Source: Halobacillus salinarum
GTDB lineage: Bacteria; Bacillota; Bacilli; Bacillales; Halobacillaceae
Reading direction: 5' to 3'
Assembly: GCF_022919095.1 (NCBI RefSeq)
Contig: NZ_CP095073.1
Span: 3,658,001 to 3,722,000 of the forward strand
Length of the DNA stretch: 64,000 nt
Under the pieces are notes generated by a model. That model ran no database searches, was not told the DNA's origin, and worked only from the letters and a program-made list of their open reading frames with translations. Positions within the stretch are counted from its first letter, which is position 1; the number at the start of each line of letters is the position of its first letter. The position numbers and the translations under genes are program-made. Positions 12,396 to 39,495 of the stretch are shown in pieces.

Positions 12396-12480
12396 AAGAG
12401 CACGATGCAGTAACTGACGACAACAGTGGAAACAACCACATGGGAACTGCATTTCATTATACGTCGGGTCGTCTGGGCAG
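12396..12480 (+). ncRNA. ZTP (pfl) riboswitch controlling folD
   Basis: The segment shows the hallmark ZTP/ZMP riboswitch blocks in order: GTAACTGACG, a GTGGAA...CCACATGGGAACTG domain, and after a short linker CGTCTGGGCAG. It is followed at once by an intrinsic terminator and then folD. The class senses ZTP/ZMP, the purine intermediates that build up when 10-formyl-tetrahydrofolate runs short, and turns on one-carbon genes. Ligand binding should prevent terminator formation. Recognition is from motif memory, not a covariance search. Confidence 0.88.
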
Positions 12481-12520
12481 AGATAAGGAACAACAAATTT
12501 CCTTATCTCTTTTATTATTT
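12479..12520 (+). terminator. Expression-platform terminator of the ZTP riboswitch
   Basis: A perfect 12-bp stem (12479-12490 with 12499-12510), 8-base loop, then TTTTATTATTT. Its 5' arm touches the last conserved riboswitch bases, as expected for transcriptional control. Confidence 0.9.
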
Positions 12521-20108: not shown

Positions 20109-20202
20109 GACTCAAGTCTTAGTTATCACTTGAAATCAATTCTTATTTATGGCAGAGTTTTAGATGATTACTAAATAGTTAACCAACTAAATGAAGATAA
20201 AT

Positions 20203-20292
20203 GTAGGGGGACCAGTAAAGCTGGTTGAGATTGTATCCGATAGATACTGACCCTTGGAACCTGACCTGGTTTATACCAGCGTAGGAAACATA
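20203..20292 (+). ncRNA. TPP riboswitch (THI box)
   Basis: Conserved TPP-riboswitch blocks are present: GCTGGTTGAGA, then ACTGACCCTTGGAACCTGA, then CTGGTT-loop-ACCAGCGTAGGAAA. A terminator 30 bases later and a thiamine-precursor transport operon complete the picture. TPP binding should favour the terminator and shut the operon. Confidence 0.95.
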
Positions 20293-20320
20293 ATGAACGA
20301 CTTATCGTTTATAATCATGT

Positions 20321-24270: not shown

Positions 24271-24945
24271 TCAGGCTTCCTTTCTATTTTTCATTTCTTC
24301 CTGGACCTCTCGGATCAGATGAGGGGTTTGATTAATTATTCTGCCGGTATAGGCATAACCTGCCATAATGACTATGGATATTCCCCAGCTTAAAGCCTGC
24401 TTAAGAATAATTCCTTTATCAAACGCTTCAACACCGTACTCTTTAATAAGCCAGAATTTCACTGTGGCCAGGATAATATTTTGCAAGGCAAAAGCTAAAG
24501 TTATTAGATTCAGGAGCACAAAAAGCCTTTTTTTATGAAACAGTTTGTAGCTGAATTTACGATCATATCCCTGCAATTCTGTGAAATCAAGCAGAAAATA
24601 TAATGCGAGAGGTCTTCTTGCCAGCATAGTCAGCAAAAAGAAGACAGCCATCACATAAGCAAAGACCACATTATTCCACAATAACTGTAAAGCAGAACCG
24701 GCAAGCACATCGATCAAGGTGCCAATTACCAGGTTGCTTATCATAAAAATCCCAAATACATTCACTTTTTTAAGAGCAAGAAAACGATAAATCGTATAAA
24801 CGATGCCAGGCACTGTAGACAAGAGCATGGCATAGTAATCGCCGATAACATCACGGGTCAGGTGCCAGACAGCTAAAGGAAAAACTACATAACAAACAAT
24901 GTCTAATACAATAAAAGTACGATTATTCAAGTTTAAATCCCCCAT
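24271..24945 (-). CDS. Multi-pass membrane protein of unknown function (VC0807-like)
   Basis: 224 residues from the ATG at 24945, with about six hydrophobic segments (e.g. VCYVVFPLAVWHL, FGIFMISNLVIGTLIDVLAG, FVLLNLITLAFALQNIILA). The pattern resembles the VC0807-type/septation-like membrane proteins; this is tentative and says nothing about function. No good ribosome binding site precedes this ATG. A TTG at 25026 with GAGGGAG farther upstream is an alternative that would add 27 residues. A structured RNA with an intrinsic terminator lies directly upstream on the same strand. Confidence 0.7.
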   Translation of the reverse strand: MGDLNLNNRTFIVLDIVCYVVFPLAVWHLTRDVIGDYYAMLLSTVPGIVYTIYRFLALKKVNVFGIFMISNLVIGTLIDVLAGSALQLLWNNVVFAYVMAVFFLLTMLARRPLALYFLLDFTELQGYDRKFSYKLFHKKRLFVLLNLITLAFALQNIILATVKFWLIKEYGVEAFDKGIILKQALSWGISIVIMAGYAYTGRIINQTPHLIREVQEEMKNRKEA

Positions 24946-25062
24946 GAGCTTAGATACTACTGATACGAATTGGATATAAACTTCGTTTCGTAAAATTACA
25001 GTACCTGTTGTTTTGGAAGGTCCCAACAGCAGAATATCTCCCTCAGGTACGCCTTCTGAACC

Positions 25063-25200
25063 AAAAAAAACCGATCCTCTAGTTAGGACCGGTTTAATAT
25101 ATGTAGGCCTGCCATTCCATATGAAATGGTTAAGTTTCCCGCAGTCGTTTATGCGTTATGGAATGGCATTGATAAAACTGTATCACAGGCTTGCGGTTCA
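25063..25200 (-). ncRNA. Structured RNA ending in an intrinsic terminator (leader or stand-alone sRNA)
   Basis: On the minus strand, TGCCATTCCAT (25158-25168) pairs perfectly with 25110-25120 around a 37-base loop. A small hairpin TGATA/TATCA (25181-25185 with 25170-25174) precedes it, and GCCTG/CAGGC (25186-25190 with 25107-25111) can close both into a three-way junction. An 11-bp stem with one G-U (25085-25095 with 25068-25078) plus eight T follows. A possible promoter, TTGAGT-17-TATAGC (25211-25239), starts next to the Spo0E-family stop. I match it to no riboswitch class I know. Confidence 0.5.
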
Positions 25201-25239
25201 TTCAAGTAGAGCTATATTGAATCAGCGGGAGGGACTCAA

Positions 25240-25398
25240 TTAACGGTCTCTCGTGGAATCTCGCCATTTATTCAACAGACCATCCAGCTCTTGAGATATT
25301 TGCAGCAATTCTTCATCCTGAGGGTTGCTGTAATAGATTTGATACATGACTTCTCTCAAATCTTCAATCTGCTGCTCCAGCTTCAATTTATAATCCAA
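25240..25398 (-). CDS. Spo0E-family aspartyl-phosphate phosphatase
   Basis: A 52-residue gene starting with TTG at 25398, eight bases after AAAGGGG. The protein is two helices: an N-terminal KLKLEQQIEDLREVMYQIYY and, after SNPQDEELLQ, the Spo0E-type signature ISQELDGLLNKW. Spo0E-like proteins dephosphorylate Spo0A~P or related response regulators and delay sporulation; the S-x3-D segment (SQELD) is the catalytic site. It has its own promoter at 25435-25463 and sits downstream of the Ter operon terminator. Confidence 0.85.
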   Translation of the reverse strand: MDYKLKLEQQIEDLREVMYQIYYSNPQDEELLQISQELDGLLNKWRDSTRDR

Positions 25399-39372: not shown

Positions 39373-39404
39373 AAAAGCTTTCCCGCCTATTGGGGAAAGC
39401 TTTT
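39373..39404 (-). terminator. Terminator ending the 39.4-39.5 kb minus-strand transcript
   Basis: A perfect 12-base arm AAAAGCTTTCCC/GGGAAAGCTTTT (39373-39384 with 39393-39404), with further T on the minus strand. It lies between two divergent gene starts, so it can only serve a short transcript made from 39.5 kb. Confidence 0.85.
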
Positions 39405-39486
39405 ACTTTTGCCGCGAACATACCGACGACCACATTCGCCGTTTAGCTTTTTCAAGCATATACTTCGTCTTACGCAAACAGCTCAT
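39403..39486 (-). CDS. Candidate 27-residue basic small protein, or the small RNA that contains it
   Basis: An ATG at 39486 opens 27 codons (MSCLRKTKYMLEKAKRRMW then SSVCSRQK) ending at TAA 39403, directly at a strong terminator. The promoter at 39496-39524 would start transcription near 39489, leaving almost no leader and no ribosome binding site. The peptide is strongly basic (nine Arg/Lys of 27, two Cys). Either a leaderless small gene or a ~120 nt noncoding RNA; inside are two short hairpins (GCTT-GAAA-AAGC and CGGCGA/TCGTCG). Confidence 0.45.
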   Translation of the reverse strand: MSCLRKTKYMLEKAKRRMWSSVCSRQK

Positions 39487-39495
39487 CGCCAGATT

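Follow-up and report, generated by a model that had tools for sequence, protein, structure and literature searches.

The window, namely the whole stretch of 64,000 nucleotides of DNA that was analysed, carries on its minus strand a Spo0E-like gene (25240..25398; PF09388, E 1.5e-12) and, downstream of it, an open reading frame for a membrane protein (24271..25026), which matches no Pfam family at E <= 0.001 and whose true start may lie further in, for example at the TTG at 24930. Between these two, on the same strand, lies a predicted small RNA gene of about 108 nt (25063..25170), which is delineated by conserved promoter columns, covariation in its closing helix P1, an intrinsic terminator and a fold with a z score of -6.52, while 25171-25239 holds the promoter and an upstream spacer and falls outside the predicted RNA. 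Two riboswitch aptamers were also recognized in the window on the plus strand, a ZTP aptamer at 12400-12485 (42 bits, gathering score 39) and a TPP aptamer at 20195-20304 (75.3 bits, gathering score 54.3). A RidA-family gene (PF01042; 38116-38499, plus strand), which lies within 1 kb in many Halobacillus loci, stands about 13 kb from the Spo0E-like gene here, with telA and yceG-type genes in between, and this separation is a rearrangement or an insertion.

Folding of the complete interval 25063-25239 gave -46.1 kcal/mol (z -3.31), and the predicted transcript (25170-25063, 108 nt) reached -37.2 kcal/mol, compared with -17.97 on average for 200 shuffles, none of which was as low. Removal of the terminator from the 108-nt RNA still left a z score of -4.64, again with 0 of 200 shuffles as low. 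The original prediction of a structured RNA with its own terminator is thus borne out on the minus strand. That prediction had left a choice between a riboswitch or attenuator for the membrane gene and a stand-alone RNA of about 150 nt; the stand-alone character is supported by promoter, terminator and genomic context, and the length is to be corrected to about 108 nt.

The promoter (25177..25205, minus strand) is composed of a -35 element TTGAAT (25205-25200), a spacer of 17 nt, an extended -10 TG (25185-25184) and a -10 element TACAGT (25182-25177). Its columns were counted in 36 distinct upstream sequences, which were aligned ungapped and anchored on AATGCC. The -35 region showed T at -35 in all 36, T at -34 in 27 and G at -33 in 28; the extended -10 showed T at -15 in 34 and G at -14 in 36; and the -10 region showed T at -12 and A at -11 in 34 each, T at -8 in 33 and T at -7 in 36, while position -1 was a pyrimidine in 36/36. 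As judged from these sequences, a putative sigma-A-like promoter at fixed spacing is conserved throughout, and since the conserved columns fall at TTGAAT-17-TACAGT (25205-25177), the RNA would start at about 25170, the A of AAUGCC, a position derived from promoter spacing. The earlier proposal of TTGAGT-17-TATAGC, at the Spo0E stop, does not coincide with the conserved promoter, because identity stays below 70% in every column from -60 to -36.

The intrinsic terminator (25063..25095, minus strand) has 11 pairs, five of them G-C, a loop of 6 and the tail TTTTTGGTTC. Its stem (25095-25068) ends in three further T and is followed by TTTTT, which together account for the 11-bp terminator with eight U described before. 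Of 31 distinct homologues, 29 have a hairpin of -11.8 kcal/mol or lower ahead of a T run, and no clear terminator was seen in the other two (L049 and L082); in L013 the hairpin lies further off, which gives an RNA of 151 nt. The terminator sequences vary widely between homologues, in contrast to the core.

A DNA search found matches in 29 of the 44 genomes of the window's family, and a covariance model, in which P1 was the sole helix, raised this to 31 of 44. By genus, the RNA occurs in the single genome of the window's genus, in 19/22 and 11/11 genomes of two Halobacillus genera and in none of 10 from the other three; it was also found in 7 of 9 genomes of a second family, which holds Pontibacillus. 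Each genome of both families that has the RNA holds one strong copy; G058 has an additional weak match (E 0.003), which was left out of the counts. Among 249 genomes sampled across the order, 15 matched at E <= 0.01, comprising 12 strong matches in the two families and three weak ones elsewhere, and a sample of 398 genomes across the class, searched with stricter filters, gave nothing at E <= 1e-4 except the window's own RNA. The best match in 15 genomes without the RNA had an E value of 0.5 (G014). A weak model match in L089 (414-474; E 5e-5) shows CTGCGGGAAACT, a short stem and then a terminator-like hairpin, and nothing like it was found in the genus mate G080. Two others, L090 and L091 (E 0.0036 and 0.0083), are without the core and were read as chance.

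An exact-core pattern in named genomes returned 26 stretches, 24 of which came from Halobacillus or Pontibacillus; in the other two, L039 and L055, the rest of the RNA is missing. These two were dropped as chance matches together with L014 and L015, and L016 was dropped as a repeat of L001. The resulting alignment, A1, contains 33 distinct sequences. A1 and the sets used for the neighbours, the promoter, the terminator and the P2 and P3 shuffles were all collected by means of an expression that includes TGCGGGA..CTTAACC, and A1 and the promoter, terminator and P2/P3 sets also required AATG[CT]C.

The closing helix P1 (25110..25168, minus strand) pairs 25168-25157 with 25121-25110, and constitutes in the window a perfect stem of 12 bp rather than the 11 bp first described. 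Across A1, 98.3% of its cells are paired and 5 of 9 pairs changed on both sides, so that the compensatory changes whose absence would have spoken against the structure are present. Such two-sided changes affect 34 cells, where shuffles average 9.9, and sliding the P1 partner by 1 to 3 columns left only 38.0-56.4% of cells paired. The P2 hairpin (25140..25155) pairs CGCA (25155-25152) with UGCG (25143-25140) in the window, and its register differs between lineages. The P3 hairpin, GGGAAA[CUUAACCA]UUUC (25123..25140, both on the minus strand), has its loop at 25134-25127; in the window's own minimum-energy fold it is reduced to two pairs, GG with CC of the loop. On A1, 72.5% and 87.9% of the P2 and P3 cells are paired with one two-sided change, such changes being scarce because one strand is nearly fixed in each helix, and therefore only the variable strand was shuffled. 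The variable P2 strand folded onto CGACUGC with a summed energy of -41.1 against -12.5 (sd 4.3) for 27 distinct strands, and the variable 3' strand of P3 gave -45.0 against -36.7 (sd 2.3) for 22 distinct strands, with 0 of 300 shuffles as low in both cases; these counts, like that for the tail below, come from related sequences and are not independent probabilities. P1, P2 and P3 are thereby predicted to form a three-way junction, and the small hairpin and possible junction of the original prediction gain the support of homologues in addition to folding.

The most constant part of the RNA is the strand ACUGCGGGAA(A)CUUAACCA (25127..25145, minus strand), which is the presumed functional region on the ground of its conservation. 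Save for a two-A or three-A variant, it is identical in all 33 rows of A1, where the fixity of the motif letters is partly due to selection because the rows were collected with those motifs. The stretch is also carried by all 29 DNA-search matches and by the model match in G003 (L013), which were chosen without the motif, and by the model-found G058, which has CAACTGC where others have CGACTGC. A parse of 31 distinct cores displayed the same fixed strand with variable lids. Because it stays fixed while its pairing partners vary, ACUGCGGGAA(A)CUUAACCA is probably the working part of the RNA, as far as comparison of sequences can tell, and a fixed strand with varying partners is to be expected where the strand is itself the thing recognized, in the simplest case by another RNA once the lids have opened. 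Among distinct homologues, the CUUAACC segment has a median unpaired probability of 0.93 (range 0.82 to 1.00). The 3' tail after P1 can pair with this loop (GGUUA with UAACC) in most distinct tails: the best helices of 27 tails sum to 122, whereas shuffles gave 96.9 (sd 4.1) and reached that sum in 0 of 1000 cases; the window's own tail has GGCCU in place of GGUUA, and 3 of 27 tails reach three pairs or fewer.

Comparison with the 4227 families of Rfam 15, in which covariance-model scores were set against gathering scores, revealed no family at gathering score over 25063-25170; below it, at E up to 10, the matches that overlap the RNA were MicF (4.2), GlsR21 (3.9) and a betaproteobacterial sRNA (8.4). 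The earlier failure to assign the RNA to a known class therefore stands. In 20 homologue loci, all above-gathering matches (SAM and Bacillaceae-1) lie elsewhere than the RNA, and weak overlaps with the RNA, such as that of AaHKsRNA41 in L013 (26.6 bits against a gathering score of 97), were not counted. SAM riboswitches are situated near the RNA in four Pontibacillus loci (L079 742-863, L081 744-862, L083 1243-1359 and L085 718-841). The Bacillaceae-1 RNA (RF01690) is likewise a small RNA gene of Bacillaceae, and two copies in opposite orientation are found near the homologue in L010 (1765-1831 on the minus and 2390-2456 on the plus strand), but its model matches the present RNA neither in the window nor in the 20 homologue loci. 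BsrF (RF01411), a further sRNA gene in the same window (39376-39489, minus strand; 60.5 bits, gathering score 50), differs in model and place and gives no match at this RNA. The trans-acting sRNAs RoxS/RsaE, SR1 and FsrA of Bacillus are also short stand-alone RNAs, each with a promoter and a terminator to itself and an exposed stretch that is conserved; in contrast, the present RNA, compared with them through Rfam, has no C-rich seed and holds its fixed strand inside a three-way junction. Among the titles given by literature searches, none dealt with an sRNA of Halobacillus or Pontibacillus. For this RNA family, common to salt-loving relatives of Bacillus, we thus found no counterpart in Rfam 15 or in those literature titles, while its kind, the stand-alone bacterial sRNA, is already known.

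The surroundings of the RNA were compared in 36 distinct loci. Upstream, 20 of them have a Spo0E-like ORF, and downstream, 28 have cstA (with family names verified for examples; among the eight loci without cstA, L053 spans just 605 nt past the core). The window's membrane gene adjoins the RNA in the window only, a check in which 15 of 107 overlapping loci hold at least 2.5 kb downstream. CstA has no match at E <= 1e-20 in the window's genome, and because a membrane protein homologue (61% identity) is located 3.1 kb downstream of the RNA in L036, beyond cstA, the window's lineage may have lost cstA between the RNA and the membrane gene. In Pontibacillus the RNA has msrA, RidA and methyltransferase-domain genes as its neighbours. 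The next ORF, counting those of at least 90 aa, is convergent in L035, L081, L052 and L106; L080 shows a shorter convergent ORF of 101 aa. Two genomes, G007 and G051 (L094 and L096), keep the RidA, Spo0E-like and cstA neighbours without the RNA, and a terminator-like hairpin remains (hairpin, RidA and Spo0E assigned by eye). Since the RNA is absent from 3 of the 22 genomes of one Halobacillus genus, it is dispensable there, and the varying neighbours, together with its being kept or lost on its own, make it an independent unit that can be lost.

This context bears directly on the readings in which the RNA belongs to a neighbouring gene. A riboswitch or attenuator of the downstream membrane gene would account for a structured RNA and a terminator ahead of a same-strand ORF, yet it is very improbable, because the neighbourhood is not the same from genus to genus and the four Pontibacillus loci named above have a convergent next gene. 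No same-strand downstream gene is conserved over the 36 loci, cstA being replaced by other genes outside the 28, and a constant core with widely differing terminators speaks against alternative pairing between the two and thus against a shared antiterminator. A reading of the RNA as nothing more than a stabiliser and terminator processed from the 3' end of the spo0E-like message is suggested by the Spo0E-like ORF upstream in more than half of the loci; such an origin is nevertheless hard to credit, as the promoter columns between gene and RNA are conserved and 16 of 36 loci have no Spo0E-like ORF, including those of Pontibacillus with msrA upstream (L035, L080 and L081). Flanks that vary between genera might also betray a mobile or repeat element, against which stand the single strong copy per genome, the lack of any match in plasmids or phages at E 0.01 and of an exact core in viral contigs, so that this origin seems the most far-fetched of all. 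A leaderless peptide beginning with the AUG at +2 was rejected too, as the reading frames are not alike and several end after a few codons in transcripts read by eye. Overall, a minus-strand small RNA gene of about 108 nt fits the evidence better than a leader of the membrane gene does.

We consider it rather probable that this gene, presumably transcribed from its own sigma-A-type extended -10 promoter to its own terminator, yields a stand-alone sRNA with a P1/P2/P3 three-way junction that acts in trans through the CUUAACCA loop. The sRNA would act on target RNAs, with the exposed CUUAACCA loop making the first contact by short pairing; P2 and P3 may then open as lids and allow the pairing to extend. 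What counts against this pairing model is that the fixed strand is largely base-paired in its CTGCGGGA half (median unpaired probability 0.29). The target searches covered long complements and one start-codon seed. The full complement of the fixed strand, with up to three mismatches, matched nothing in 44 genomes apart from the RNA gene and a single site in G045, which yielded no near-perfect antisense target, although the pattern had the three-A form and misses even the RNA gene in 9 two-A RNA-bearing genomes of the family, so that targets there are less well tested. Wobble complements gave 75 matches, RNA genes included, against 99 for the control in 31 RNA-bearing genomes, and thus no excess. 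Seven of the non-RNA wobble sites were read and none was convincing: that in L167, 28 nt into a sense ORF of 136 aa, also stands opposite an ORF of 359 aa, and that in L165 is 172 nt inside a 412-aa ORF. Blocking of start codons through AUGGUUAAG behind AGGA likewise showed no excess, as 60 sites stood against 54 in the genomes with the RNA (31) and 17 against 18 in those without it (13).

The main rival to pairing is that the same stand-alone RNA binds a protein or a small molecule through its junction and loop without pairing to messages, which we regard as possible but tentative. It would suit a fixed region that spans a P2 strand, a P3 strand and the loop, as well as the empty outcome of the long-complement and start-codon-seed searches, and the tail-loop pairing would allow a pseudoknot. 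The deviating tail of the window and the three poorly pairing tails speak against it, as do the lid strands, which vary freely; a binding site made of both strands would not usually leave them free to vary. In its boldest form, this binding alternative would make the RNA a new class of the halophilic Halobacillus, Pontibacillus and the window's genus, in which the three-way junction is joined by a loop-tail pseudoknot in most members. The fixed 18-nt strand of the junction would then bind a ligand or protein and exert direct control over a cellular factor, in a manner resembling 6S RNA rather than antisense RNA, a proposal that we hold to be doubtful.

Whether it acts by pairing or by binding, the RNA described here adds a well-supported family that Rfam 15 does not match. 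Because the fixed strand is kept under changing lids and a few Halobacillus genomes naturally lack the RNA, deletion and pull-down can test its role directly.
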